Shown here in pieces: positions 4,768-30,792 of a DNA stretch of 64,000 nucleotides. The DNA comes from Muribaculaceae bacterium (lineage in GTDB: Bacteria; Bacteroidota; Bacteroidia; Bacteroidales; Muribaculaceae). Where the stretch lies: positions 1 through 64,000 of the forward strand of contig JAFLTW010000001.1 of the NCBI GenBank assembly GCA_022509085.1, in the 5' to 3' direction. Made by a program: the position numbers and the translations under genes. Numbering within the stretch: the stretch's first letter is position 1; each line of letters opens with the position of its first letter. The notes below the pieces were generated by a model. That model made no database searches, was not told the DNA's origin, and saw only the letters and a program-made list of their open reading frames with translations.

Positions 4768-5808
4768 TTACCATGTGGCGTGAGCCAGACAGGCCTCTGT
4801 GATCCATATCCATAGCGGACAGAAACCCATAAAAAGAATCACACTCAACGCCAGTGAAGAGGTGCCGGTGGCGACATATGTGTCGCGTTCGTCTGCGATG
4901 ATGATACCTGAGAAAGCGGGAGGAAGAACACCTGCCACAACAAGCATCTTGAGGTTGAGCGGATCCATTTTGAAAATGATACCGACGATAAGAAGAAGAG
5001 CGGGCATCATTATAAGTTTGAGGATTGAGCCCAGGATAGCCTGCCAGTTGATTACAATCTTTACTGAAGAGAGAGTTACACCGGCTGAGAAAACGGCCAT
5101 AGATGCATTGGCACCCTTAATAAGGTCGAAAGAGGGACTTGCCCATTTAGGCCAGGGAATACCGATTACAACCCAAATTACGGCCAGGATAGGAGCCCAA
5201 GCCACGGGCTGAGCAAGTGCATGGAGCACCGGTTTCCAGAAACTTTCGTGCACTACGGGTTTGGCAGGAGTACCGGATCCTCCGGCAGTCGCCGTAGCCG
5301 TGCCACCCTGTGCTGCAAGTTGTGCTGCTTCCTTTTCCTTGGCTGCATTCAGAAGCGACAGACCTACCGGAATACCCACGGCATTAACCACGATACCGAC
5401 GATGGCAACCACGAGGGCTACATAAGGGGTTGTGCCAAAGATAGGTTCAAGGACTGCAAAACCGAGGAACCCGATTGTCGGCGAACCGCTGATAAGAGCC
5501 ATTACCGCTGCCGAACCCGGAGGATTCTTCCGGAAACACCATTTATAGATGAAATAAACGGTCATGAAGCAGAACATGATCACCACCAGAGATATGATGG
5601 AAAGTTTGATGTCTTTCACAAGCATCTCGCGGCTTGCGTCGACGATTGAGACAAAGAGGGCAGCCGGCAAGGCGTAAACGAGCACAACCTTATTGAACTT
5701 CTTTGAGTCCTCTCCGGTAAAAGCACCTCTTTTCCCTGCGATGTAGCCCACGAGCATCACGACGATGATAGGCACAATCGCATAGAGGATTACATGAACA
5801 ATATTCAT
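4768..5808 (-). CDS. AEC (auxin efflux carrier) family permease, candidate oxalate/formate transporter
   Basis: Ten-TM AEC-type sequence; third gene after frc and oxc, as with yfdV in E. coli. Confidence 0.85.
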   Translation of the reverse strand: MNIVHVILYAIVPIIVVMLVGYIAGKRGAFTGEDSKKFNKVVLVYALPAALFVSIVDASREMLVKDIKLSIISLVVIMFCFMTVYFIYKWCFRKNPPGSAAVMALISGSPTIGFLGFAVLEPIFGTTPYVALVVAIVGIVVNAVGIPVGLSLLNAAKEKEAAQLAAQGGTATATAGGSGTPAKPVVHESFWKPVLHALAQPVAWAPILAVIWVVIGIPWPKWASPSFDLIKGANASMAVFSAGVTLSSVKIVINWQAILGSILKLIMMPALLLIVGIIFKMDPLNLKMLVVAGVLPPAFSGIIIADERDTYVATGTSSLALSVILFMGFCPLWIWITEACLAHATW

Positions 5809-9317: not shown

Positions 9318-12300
9318 ATGCCAATAAAAAAGATAGTAGACGGTTGCACTGCAGCCACGTACGTGGCCTATGCTTTCAGCGAGGTTGCCACAATATATCC
9401 AATCACACCTATTGCCTCCATGGGAGAAACGGCCGACAAATGGAATGTAGCCGGCGTAAAAAATCTGCTGGGAAGCCCGATGCAGGTAAGAGAGATGGAA
9501 TCCGAGTTGGGAGCCGCGGGCGCCACCCACGGAGCTTTGGCAGCCGGTGCACTGGCGACCACCTTTACGGCTTCGCAGGGCCTGATGCTGATGATTCCCA
9601 ACATGTACAAGATCTCCGGTGAACTTTTGCCGGGTGTATTCCATGTAGGTTGCAGGTCGCTCGCCACACAGGCGTTGAGTATATTTGGCGACCATCAGGA
9701 TGTGATGGCATGTAGAGCCACAGGGTTTTCTCTTCTGGCCTCAGCATCCGTGCAGGATGCACACGATCTTGCTATAGTGGCTCATCTCTCCGCTCTGGAG
9801 GGTTCACTACCTGTTCTGCACTTCTTTGACGGCTGGCGTACATCCAATGAGATGTCGACAATAGAGATGCTCTCTTACGAAGAAATGTTGCCATTGCTTC
9901 CTTCAGACAAGATAAAAGCCTTCAGGAGGAGAGCCATGAATCCGGAACATCCTGACCTTCGGGGCTCGGCGCAGAACTCGGACGTCTACTTCCAGAACCG
10001 CGAGGCTCCCAATCGTTTTTATAATGCGTTTCCCTCCATAGTTCAGGAACAGATGGATCGAATTGCACCGCTTCTCGGACGGAGCTATCATCTCTTCGAC
10101 TATGTGGGAGCTCCGGATGCCGACAGGGTCATCATCACGATGGGCTCGAGTTGCGATGTGGTGGAAGAGACTGTCAAATACCTTAACGGCAAGGGGGAGA
10201 AGGTGGGTTTGATAAAGGTAAGGTTGTACAGGCCATTTTCGGCAGAGCACCTTCTAAAGGCATTACCTGACACGGTAAAGGCAGTAGCGGCACTCGACAG
10301 GACAAAGGAGCCCGGCAGTGAGGGGGAGCCTCTATATCTTGATGTGGCCACGGCTCTCTTCAAGGCAGGGAGAAACGTAACTTTGATAGGGGGACGATAC
10401 GGGCTTAGCAGCAAGGAGTTTGATCCCTCTATGGCAGCGCGAATTTTTGAGGAACTCGCAAAGCCGAATCCAAAAGACGGTTTCACAATAGGCATAACCG
10501 ATGACCTTACTCATACCTCGCTCCCTGTAGAAACCCATATCTACTCCTTGCCCAAGAAAATTTCACAGGCCATATTCTACGGGATGGGTTCCGACGGTAC
10601 GGTGGGTGCAACAAAAATGGCAGCGCAGATAGTTGGAGACGCGGAAAATCTCTTTGCCCAGGCTTACTTCCACTATTCAGCCAAAAAATCAGGTGGCTAT
10701 ACCATCTCAGAATTGCGGATCGGACCGGAACAGATACATTCAGCGTATGGGATAGAAGATGCTGACATCGTCGTAAACAACAAAGACACCTACGTAAGGA
10801 GATTCGATATCGTAAAGAACCTCAAGGAGGGTGGCATACTGCTTCTCAATTCAGGCTGGACGAGCGAGGATATGGAGACTCAGTTGCCGGCTGAATTGAA
10901 AAGAAAAATTGCTGAAAAGAAAATCAGGCTCTATAATCTTGACGCCTTTGGAATAGCGGCTAAACATGGTCTTGGGGTACGAATCAACACAATAATGCTT
11001 ACGGCTTATCTCAAACTATCGCCCGTAGTGCCGTTTGAAGAAGCTTTTGCCCAACTTGAGAACCTTATTTCAACCACCTACAAGCATGAGGGAAACTCAG
11101 TGGTTGAGACCAACTTGGCTGCAATAGAAGAAGCAGTGGGAGGAATAGAGGAGATTAAATATCCCGCTTCGTGGCTCACGGCTATGGAAATAGGTCAGAC
11201 CGACGAAAAAGTGCCCGCATATATTTCTGAAATTGCAAAACCCTGCATGGATCTGGAGGGAGACAATCTGCCTGTCTCACTCTTCTCGCCCGACGGCACG
11301 ATGCCCATGGGCACCACGGCATACGAAAAAAGGGCCATTGCACTCAACGTGCCCCAATGGGATGTGGACAAATGTGTGGAATGTACCCTCTGTTCATTGG
11401 TTTGCGCGCATGCCTCTATCCGTCCCGTGCTGATAAATGCCGAGGAGAAAGCCAAGGCTCCTGAAGAAATGATCTCAAAGGCAGCTGAGGAACCGGCTTT
11501 AAAGGGACTGCAATATAGAATCCAGGTGTATCCCGAAGACTGTACGGGTTGCAGTTCGTGTGCCGTAATATGTCCGGGCCATGCCTTGACAATGGAGCCG
11601 ATCTCTACGCAATTGGAGGATCAGAAGAAGCTTTTGACATATGTCCGGGAGAACATTACCATAAAAGACGGTCTGCAACCACGCAATACGATTGACGGTT
11701 CTCAATTTTATGAACCGATGTTGGAATTCTCCGGGGCATGTGCCGGCTGCGGAGAGACTCCCTATGTAAAACTCCTCACTCAGTTGATGGGGGAGAGGAT
11801 GCTGATTGCCAACGCAACAGGTTGCAGTTCAATCTGGGGAGCCAACTTCCCCAGCAACGCTTACTGTACCAACCGTTTCGGTCAGGGTCCGGCATGGGGT
11901 AACTCCCTGTTTGAAGACAATGCGGAATATGGTTTCGGAATGGCTGTGGCAATCTCCCATAGAAGGGAAAGAATAATTGAAGTAGCACAGACGGTTTGTA
12001 ATGCGCAGGACACCCCCGCTGATTTGAAGACGGCGCTAGAGGATTGGCTGCAAAATAAGGATGACAAGGAGAAGTCGACTACTACGGGAAAGAATGCCCT
12101 TGCGGTCTTAAAGAAATATCCCTCGGTAAATGGGGTAACGGAAATTTTAGATGGTGCAGACCTTCTGGCCAAGAAGAGTATCTGGATAATCGGAGGCGAC
12201 GGATGGGCTTATGATATCGGTTTTGGTGGCTTGGATCATGTACTGGCACAGAATATCGACGTGAACATCCTTGTGATGGATACAGAGTGCTATTCCAACA

Positions 12301-28502: not shown

Positions 28503-28655
28503 CTATTTAGCACATTCCACATAAAGATTCATGAAGTTTTCACCGGCAAATAATGGATCGTGCTCGGAGTAAAAGGTTGCGGAGAGATCCACGTCGCTAT
28601 TTCCATCGAAACGGGAAGTCTGAATAGAGCCGAATACACGGCATTTATTTATCAT
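28503..28655 (-). pseudogene. 50-aa truncated MNT-type nucleotidyltransferase ORF (remnant or mini-antitoxin), overlapping the Fic stop by ATGA
   Basis: Manual translation [50 protein letters not shown] aligns with LCVFGSILTPRFNEKSDVDFSATFYPEEDPLVAGENFLNLYLDLED of the 29744-30046 gene. Confidence 0.8.
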
Positions 28656-29203
28656 TCAGGTTCGTAGCCTTCGTAGTAGTAGGATTGGTCGATACCATGG
28701 AAGATGACGTCGCGATTATCCGTTTCGGAGGTCAAAGCTGATTCTAACAAAACCCTCAACTCCAAATCATTGATAGGGGAACGCTCCATGGCTTGCATGT
28801 AAGCATCACGAGTTATCTTCTGCCAGTCAATCACTTTGCCTAACGCTTTTCGAAGCATCATGTCAAACCATATTCGGGTAACACGACCATTCCCTTCCAT
28901 GAAAGGATGGGCAATGTTCATCTCAACATATTTGGATATGATTTCCTCAAATGTAGTTTCCGGCATCTTTTCTATTGCGTCAAGGGCCGGGACAAGATAT
29001 AGCGAGTTGGCAAAGCGAAATCCTCCTTTTGATATATTGAGTTTTCTGATTTCTCCGGCAAAAGGGTAGAGTCCATCGAAAAGAGCGTGATGGATTTCTT
29101 GAAGTCCCTTGGTTGTTCCAACTTCAATATCATAAACTCGCCCGGAGGCAAAAAGCTCCTTTGCCTTTTCTATACTGAGTTTGTCTATTTCGTGCCGACT
29201 CAT
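28652..29203 (-). CDS. Fic/DOC family protein (predicted AMPylase-type)
   Basis: HPFMEGNGR Fic motif; [24 protein letters not shown]. Confidence 0.93.
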
Positions 29204-29523: not shown

Positions 29524-29751
29524 TCATTTTATCTTACCTCCATTATTAGCACAAAGTGTTTGTAAATCTTCTATGGCATTCTCTATTGAAAGAGTATGTT
29601 CTGCATCATAGCAATCGATAAGGAAATCAACGCCATGATATCGTTTTAAGTATTTATAAGCCTCTATATTGGTAAGCTTGAAATGCTCCCCAAAAGCACT
29701 GATACAAGTAGCCAAATACTCGATCCTGTTAAAAAGGTCCCTCTTATCCAT
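29524..29751 (-). CDS. DUF3791-like small protein
   Basis: 75 aa, overlaps the upstream MNT gene by 8 nt. Confidence 0.6.
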   Translation of the reverse strand: MDKRDLFNRIEYLATCISAFGEHFKLTNIEAYKYLKRYHGVDFLIDCYDAEHTLSIENAIEDLQTLCANNGGKIK

Positions 29752-30046
29752 AAATTAATTGTTTGGTCTCTTCCAACTCTTCTATAAAATAGGGATTTTT
29801 GAGATTGTCTTCATCCACTAAATCAATCCTCCTCCCCATCAAATCCTCTAAATCTAAATATAGATTTAGAAAATTTTCTCCGGCGACTAGTGGGTCTTCC
29901 TCGGGATAGAAAGTGGCAGAGAAGTCTACGTCGCTTTTTTCATTGAAGCGAGGGGTAAGGATAGAACCAAAAACGCACAGAGTCTTGACCCCATACTTTC
30001 GGCAAAGGGCATAAATCTGCTCCAGGTTATCGGTAATTAAATGCAT
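29744..30046 (-). CDS. MNT-domain nucleotidyltransferase (MntA-like antitoxin family)
   Basis: FGSILTPRFNEKSDVDFSATF (GSx10DxD) plus third acidic RRIDLVDED. Confidence 0.9.
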   Translation of the reverse strand: MHLITDNLEQIYALCRKYGVKTLCVFGSILTPRFNEKSDVDFSATFYPEEDPLVAGENFLNLYLDLEDLMGRRIDLVDEDNLKNPYFIEELEETKQLIYG

Positions 30047-30128: not shown

Positions 30129-30136
30129 TAATTTTG
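30129..30136 (+). promoter_or_regulatory. Promoter -7 box TAATTTTG
   Basis: TAnnTTTG perfect match; -33 box only weakly matched (ATTG at 30103-30106). Confidence 0.55.
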
Positions 30137-30141
30137 CATTT

Positions 30142-30420
30142 GAATCGTAGGTGAAGGACTAAAATCCGGAGATTGCAGAGGCAACAGACGATTCTAAAAT
30201 TTTAAGAAAGGTGTTATTGAAATTTTATCTTTAATCATCAAACTTGGCGGTTTGTAATCCTACAAAGATAAAGTTGGCAATAGCACTACATCAGATGCTT
30301 TGTGCTGAACACTATGCTCAGTATAGCATACCGGTGTGGGGCTATTGTTTTATCCGTAGGAGAGGCACGCCAAGGCCTGATGATTGGATAAAACAGAGAT
30401 ACTTTCCCTACACCTTTTTT
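30142..30420 (+). ncRNA. Candidate structured ncRNA, about 280 nt, with its own terminator
   Basis: Consecutive stems: GAATCGT/ACGATTC enclosing GGA/TCC and TTGC/GCAA hairpins; TTTATCTTT/AAAGATAAA enclosing CAAAC/GTTTG; AGCAC/GTGCT; TATGCT/AGCATA; GTTTTATCC/GGATAAAAC nested in GGTGTGGGG/CCCTACACC followed by TTTTTT. Confidence 0.6.
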
Positions 30421-30471
30421 ATTTCAAAACTTGAAGTTTCGATGAGGGATAAGAAACACTTAATATTTTTT

Positions 30472-30792
30472 ATGGAAAATTCTTGTATGAATTCCGAACA
30501 AGTTTTCTCACCGCAGGGTAATCCGTTCCCGAATCAACAGATTATTATCAATCAATCTGAAAAGAGAGGAAATGGGTTAGGGACAACGGGATTTGTTCTC
30601 GCTCTTTTGGGACTCGTGTTTTGTTGGGTGCCCGTATTAAATTGGATTTTATGGATTCTTGGATTGGTGTTTTCGGCAATAGGAGTTTTTAGAGCTCCAA
30701 GAGGTTTAGCCATCACAGGTTTGGTCCTTTCTTTTATCGGTGTCATATTACTGATAGCATTTGCCGCTGCATTCGTTGCGGCATTTGCATAA
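30472..30792 (+). CDS. DUF4190-like small membrane protein
   Basis: GLGTTGFVLALLGLVFCWVPVLNWILWILGLVFSAIGV...GLAITGLVLSFIGVI; ATG at 30472 preferred over the TTG at 30244. Confidence 0.8.
   Translation: MENSCMNSEQVFSPQGNPFPNQQIIINQSEKRGNGLGTTGFVLALLGLVFCWVPVLNWILWILGLVFSAIGVFRAPRGLAITGLVLSFIGVILLIAFAAAFVAAFA

Follow-up and report, generated by a model that had tools for sequence, protein, structure and literature searches.

The region 30205-30420 of the window, by which we mean the whole 64,000-nt stretch of Muribaculaceae DNA analyzed here, is a genuine conserved structured RNA and not a coding sequence. The RNA precedes genes of very different kinds and has two competing folds open to it; it is therefore probably an on/off transcription switch at the 5' end of their mRNAs. 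Judged from its sequence, it is best read as belonging to a new family, either of transcription attenuators that act in cis or of orphan riboswitches. Below, the fold, the genomic position and the distribution of this RNA are considered along with the alternative explanations.

A covarying rod in the conserved core

The initial annotation had proposed an uncharacterized structured RNA at this locus, and the elements on which it relied, namely the -7 box at 30129-30136, the complementary pairs GAATCGT/ACGATTC, TTTATCTTT/AAAGATAAA, CAAAC/GTTTG, GTTTTATCC/GGATAAAAC and GGTGTGGGG/CCCTACACC, and the closing TTTTTT, were all recovered in place. The transcript 30137-30420 has a predicted folding energy of -96.3 kcal/mol compared with -62.4 +/- 4.6 kcal/mol in shuffled sequences (z = -7.4), and none of 200 shuffles was as stable. 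This stability, together with the covariation described below and the lack of any Rfam 15 family, bears the proposal out. Aligning the window with six other genomes from its genus, obtained by BLAST against 40 relatives, delimited the conserved part to 30205-30420, while the sequence of the interval from the promoter box to this core varies among the same-genus relatives. The coordinates of all recognized elements are given in Table 1.

Table 1. Elements of the leader RNA locus (positions count from the first nucleotide of the window)
Element	Position	Strand	Partner or basis
-7 promoter box TAATTTTG, Bacteroidota-type	30129-30136	+	TAnnTTTG enriched upstream of copies
5' leader hairpin GAATCGT/ACGATTC (arms 30142-30148/30188-30194), with inner hairpin TTGC-AGAG-GCAA	30142-30194	+	
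Conserved RNA core, bistable rod, ~216 nt	30205-30420	+	Covariance models R1 (199 bits) and R2 (188 bits); 101-sequence alignment
Segment A (1) GGTGTTATTG	30210-30219	+	First part pairs with Z (rod); whole pairs with D (alternative fold)
AATCATCA, 5' strand of fully covarying rod helix	30233-30240	+	Partner 30378-30385
Hairpin CAAAC-TTGGCG-GTTTG	30239-30254	+	Loop complementary to 30368-30374
Segment D (2) CAATAGCACTACATC	30278-30292	+	Partner A (early fold) or F (rod, proposed antiterminator)
Variable tip between D and F	30293-30332	+	Copies differ in length and sequence; reduced in ~160-nt members
Segment F (3) GGTGTGGGGCTATTG	30333-30347	+	Partner D or Z
CGCCAAG, pairs with 30243-30249	30368-30374	+	Covarying helix 4
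TGATGATT, 3' strand of covarying rod helix	30378-30385	+	Partner 30233-30240
Segment Z (4) CCCTACACC and U6, predicted 3' arm of intrinsic terminator	30406-30420	+	F-Z helix of 9 bp; T-run
3' hairpin GTTTC-GATGAGGGATAA-GAAAC, before start codon	30436-30457	+	G-rich-loop hairpin recurs in copies
Downstream gene, 106-aa membrane protein, proposed target	30472-30792	+	ATG 52 nt past U-run

The most stable fold of the RNA, which also has the best covariation support, is a single long rod. RNAalifold returned this rod from the seven same-genus sequences with 66 pairs, 21 of them doubly compensated. A covariance model built from homologs and a search for compensatory changes, both suggested by the initial annotation, extended the result to 101 aligned copies (100 distinct), in which 95.8% of the cells are paired and changes on both sides occur at 50 of the 66 pairs. 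The covariation score of the rod was 0.438, compared with 0.198 in shuffles and 0.05-0.08 when the partners were slid. As the 101-copy alignment had been fitted to the rod model, the analysis was repeated on 43 copies aligned by sequence alone with MAFFT, from which RNAalifold again returned the rod, with 25 of 59 pairs doubly compensated. The helix joining 30233-30240 to 30378-30385 covaries throughout, with up to 66 of 100 copies altered on both sides at one pair.

A strongly conserved core is made up of the elements CAAAC-CTTGGC-GTTTG and AGGT-GCCAAG-ACCT, whose loops are complementary to each other. The contact CTTGGCG/CGCCAAG is paired in 98.9% of the cells and displays GC/CG exchanges. 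The CTTGGC/GCCAAG contact was at first taken for a kissing loop only; this view was widened, given that the same contact sits within the rod, and the contact may be either a kissing loop or only part of the rod. The CTTGGC/GCCAAG core, flanked by hairpins, is likely to be the putative sensing or binding site.

A protein-coding extension of the downstream gene (ORF 30244-30792, starting at TTG) was rejected, as 1 of 73 copies, the window alone, keeps the frame open across the RNA; the initial annotation had likewise doubted that this ORF is real coding sequence.

A competing fold and a proposed attenuation mechanism

The strands of the rod can also be arranged as two hairpins. In this second fold, helix A-D (GGUGUUAUUG/CAAUAGCACC) encloses UAUCUUU/AAAGAUA, and helix F-Z (GGUGUGGGG/CCUCACACC; CCCUACACC in the window) encloses UUUAUCC/GGAUAAA. 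The two-hairpin fold was absent from the model used to align the copies, and 94.6% of its cells are paired, with compensatory changes in 23 of 42 pairs. The initial annotation had seen a chain of separate hairpins as the structure of the RNA; two of them, TTTATCTTT/AAAGATAAA and the GTTTTATCC/GGATAAAAC stem nested in GGTGTGGGG/CCCTACACC, survive as this conserved second fold, whereas the best-supported fold is the single rod. Its stems AGCAC/GTGCT and TATGCT/AGCATA did not emerge as conserved helices; they are located within the D strand or the variable tip.

Across the copies, segment A pairs with D in 98% of the cells and with Z in 94%. Nearly all distant members, although their letters differ, retain the pairing of F with D as well as with Z (GGCGUGAG/CUCACGCC, GGGUGUG/CACACCC, GCGGGCG/CGCCCGU and others), whereas four outgroup members have a weak A-Z pairing or none, and it is thus the competition between F-D and F-Z that is invariant. 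A T-run of at least four follows Z in 94 of 100 copies. When the folding of growing RNAs was predicted, A-D formed in 96 of 101 before F emerged; the full-length RNAs adopted the rod in 98 of 101, and isolated 3' halves the F-Z terminator in 94 of 101. Mutually exclusive conserved helices, one of them an intrinsic terminator, which characterize a transcription attenuator, are therefore present at the sequence level. The four-segment topology is that of the trp attenuator and is found again in distant members whose sequences differ.

On this basis we favor, with moderate confidence, an attenuation model for the leader of the 30472 gene as a whole. Transcription would start just after the TAATTTTG box and produce a small 5' hairpin followed by the ~216-nt RNA, in which A, D, F and Z would be the equivalents of segments 1-2-3-4 of the trp leader. 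A would pair with D first. Once made, F could displace A and pair with D to form the long rod; alternatively, F could stay free and form with Z a G+C-rich hairpin beside U6 that would act as an intrinsic terminator. Read-through beyond U6 and the 3' hairpin would allow expression of the gene, and a signal (ligand, ion, protein or RNA) favoring one partner of F would decide the outcome. The conservation of the RNA, its two pairings, its position and the diversity of its target genes are established from the sequences, whereas that termination occurs, which fold is "off" and that a signal exists are all three inferred. Because the rod also sets an A-Z hairpin beside U6, it might terminate as well, which makes the assignment of the "on" fold uncertain.

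Position relative to promoter and start codon

The position of the RNA with respect to the flanking signals is nearly fixed. Within the interval from -130 to -30 of the core, 87 of 97 copies carry the motif TAnnTTTG, compared with 9.2 expected from shuffles, and across ~100 copies the motif lies ~60 nt (45-90) upstream of the core. The downstream start codon clusters 48-60 nt after the U-run, and between the two a hairpin with a G-rich loop was found in 83 of 99 copies (16.7 in shuffles). In about one quarter of the copies, no ATG opening a 60-aa ORF stands out clearly between +38 and +70. At the 5' side, the hairpin drawn by the initial annotation is poorly conserved in sequence, and what recurs is a hairpin with an AGAG-type loop (63 of 98 copies compared with 18.8 in shuffles) in an otherwise variable sequence. 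Some Flavobacteriia-like members are found ~230 nt upstream of a SusC-like gene, and the short-type copies L261 and L278 (G748) lie ~230 nt, instead of the usual ~50 nt, upstream of genes recognized by sequence as SusC/RagA-like receptors. The copies that lack a clear ATG, the wider spacing before SusC-like genes and the loss of A-Z in the outgroup members count against the attenuation model.

An upstream promoter, a fixed spacing to a start codon on the same strand and no second TAnnTTTG box between the RNA and the start codon (0 of 100 copies) point to the RNA as the 5' leader of the downstream gene, here that with the ATG at 30472, and we regard its cis-acting role as very probable. The initial annotation had preferred a stand-alone RNA, from which the near-fixed promoter and ATG positions in ~100 copies point away. 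According to this alternative, a trans-acting sRNA or RNP scaffold would end at U6 and lie upstream of genes by chance; it would have its own promoter box and a terminator-like end, its core is very highly conserved in sequence, and it is multicopy like the FopS-type sRNA families (PMC11697453). It would leave the downstream gene without a TAnnTTTG box of its own, and both the distance to the start codon and the 3' hairpin past the terminator are conserved, so that we consider it unlikely. Under the attenuation model, a short terminated transcript could arise as the "off" product.

A 5' leader could also act on translation or mRNA stability, through the G-rich-loop hairpin located right before the ATG or through cleavage of the long rod, which resembles, by our reading, a substrate of double-strand RNases. 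Such a mechanism would leave the conserved arrangement of F-Z and the U-run unexplained, and we consider it improbable compared with transcription attenuation.

Regarding the neighbors of the RNA in the window, the initial annotation had named an MNT antitoxin-like gene and a DUF4190 gene. The first label holds, given the Pfam NTP_transf_2 match of the nucleotidyltransferase gene at 29524-30046 (-), for which the NCBIfam MntA antitoxin match is below the cut-off; the DUF4190 match of the 30472 gene is sub-threshold (E 0.0014; 18.8 bits compared with the 35-bit Pfam cut-off). The MNT-like gene adjoins a DUF3791 gene, and a Fic-domain gene is located at 28652-29203. HepT-like genes adjoin other copies of the leader RNA in 3 of 67 cases.

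Distribution, associated genes and relation to known RNAs

With covariance model R1, copies were detected in 60 of 111 genomes of the host genus, in 95 of 149 genomes and 27 of 30 genera of the host family Muribaculaceae, and in 36 of 295 genomes of the host order; the E-values of the covariance models are rough, and many loci come from metagenome bins. A third model, built with the short members of ~160-180 nt, gave counts of at least 105 of 295 Bacteroidales genomes and at least 48 of 398 Bacteroidota genomes, which are lower bounds since 6-9 candidates were scored per genome. Full scoring yielded 11 copies in the genome of the window and 26 in one relative (G423). In this relative and in G040 and G318, many copies lie on short contigs or by contig ends, which suggests either a recent expansion or repeats that break assemblies. 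A pattern scan added copies in Phocaeicola, Bacteroides, Mediterranea, Barnesiella and Palleniella, and the 63 pattern matches accepted by the model bear names of Bacteroidales, except for one gut MAG labeled Lachnospiraceae (L168). The covariance model rejected the matches in Streptomyces, Hydrogenophaga, Oligoflexia, Chitinophaga and others, which were set aside as chance and served as a negative control. A phage or plasmid origin was rejected, as BLAST against phage and plasmid records gave no matches to the RNA; of two pattern matches on viral contigs, one was chance (an unrelated phage) and the other a true copy in an integrase-bearing element.

The genes behind different copies are unrelated to one another. 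Among 75 downstream proteins searched with Pfam, BspA-type LRR was found in 16, TerB, lipocalin, Big_2, AraC, LytTR and DnaJ-type domains as singles or pairs, and many proteins had no match; a crude scan suggests signal or membrane segments in about two thirds. DNA similarity between copies often begins near the promoter and breaks off close to the start codon, ~35-60 nt beyond the RNA. On the upstream side, most neighbors are chromosomal genes unrelated to one another, and some are integrase, RadC and DUF3871 genes. One contig (L082, G105 contig 59) carries two copies 5.4 kb apart, at 4985-5200 and 10419-10634 (-), which are 99.6% identical over exactly 245 bp between unrelated flanks and have no recognizable -7 box; the pair looks like an RNA duplicated as a unit. 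The sporadic distribution, the unrelated target genes and this exact duplication suggest that the leader spreads as a unit.

These same features, the 245-bp identity, the adjoining integrase, RadC or DUF3871 genes and the leaders shared by unrelated genes, could also be those of a mobile DNA element or an attC-like folded-DNA recombination site that carries or receives gene cassettes. Such an element would not account for the constant orientation and distance of the RNA relative to the following gene, which also weaken a MITE reading, nor for the conserved promoter, U-run and start-codon hairpin. Integron-like cassettes were considered because of the integrases and rejected for the absence of arrays, as among 41 sources only the contigs L082 and L091 hold two copies each and no attC-like arrays occur; with upstream neighbors that are mostly chromosomal, we consider this explanation very unlikely. 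On an IMG/VR contig labeled viral (L246, 8169-12060), the order DUF3871, RadC, tyrosine recombinase, leader RNA and DnaJ-like gene constitutes an integrative element with leader and cargo.

In comparison with known RNAs, the window had no match in Rfam 15 at gathering scores, and at E <=10 nothing was assignable to the core, merely chance matches near the locus; the other copies tested likewise gave no match on the RNA. This covariance-model check, proposed by the initial annotation with explicit mention of 6S-Flavo, thus agrees with its view of the RNA as uncharacterized, and no description of the leader RNA was found in the literature searched. 6S RNA is a single-copy housekeeping rod with a large central bubble. 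A divergent 6S RNA would fit the bulged, rod-like shape and the fact that 6S-Flavo was undetected in the host genus; the lack of a 6S-Flavo match even at E 10, the sporadic occurrence with up to 26 copies per genome and the fixed leader position led us to reject it, and we give it almost no credence.

The leader RNA shares with trp-type attenuators the 5' location and the segments 1-2-3-4, in which 1-2 and 3-4 (terminator and U-run) compete with 2-3. It differs from them in being ~216 nt long, in placing these segments inside a covarying rod whose loop-loop core is conserved and in preceding unrelated targets; moreover, no conserved leader peptide was found for it, by a count of ATG presence before the core (an ATG in the preceding 60 nt in 49 of 100 copies). 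The distribution resembles that of c-di-GMP-type riboswitches, with multicopy leaders ahead of diverse accessory genes and a terminator expression platform (predicted here), whereas the RNA matches no Rfam riboswitch family and is phylum-restricted so far. Leader attenuators are a known kind of element; the RNA family and the four-strand bistable rod appear to be new. More tentatively, the copies might constitute a phylum-wide class of orphan riboswitches or attenuators, in which one signal would act through four interchangeable strands and a kissing-loop core. In each genome it would control dozens of genes for surface proteins, lipoproteins and accessory functions, unrelated to one another and captured by a leader that can be transferred. 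The leader RNA itself would add a large unlisted family to a gut-dominant phylum with few known RNA regulators, and its regulon would comprise BspA-type LRR surface proteins, lipoproteins, TerB, transcription regulators, integrative-element cargo and some SusC-like genes. Such a regulon would make the search for the signal directly testable, and the conserved double pairing would give exact switch mutants.

Other structured RNAs of Bacteroidota (Bacteroidales-1, Bacteroides-1, 6S-Flavo, Flavo-1 and FopS) had no covariance-model match in any copy tested. FopS consists of one terminator hairpin and a single-stranded seed; it and the other RNAs published for Bacteroidota were rejected as the identity of the leader RNA, from which they differ by description. 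A human-microbiome screen (PMC8040213) reported thousands of candidate structured RNAs of <=219 bp, mostly short, among them palindromic intergenic ones of Bacteroidetes with predicted terminators; by comparison of descriptions, its list could possibly hold a fragment of the leader RNA. The DUF805 and DUF805b RNAs (RF03081, RF02914) are cis elements of the same taxon, yet they are short hairpin motifs without homology to the core. At one locus (L118), a DUF805b match at 1701-1737 (RF02914, just below gathering) and a DUF805 match at 1794-1859 (RF03081) stand in tandem directly downstream of a leader RNA member, where a functional link between the two kinds of RNA is possible.
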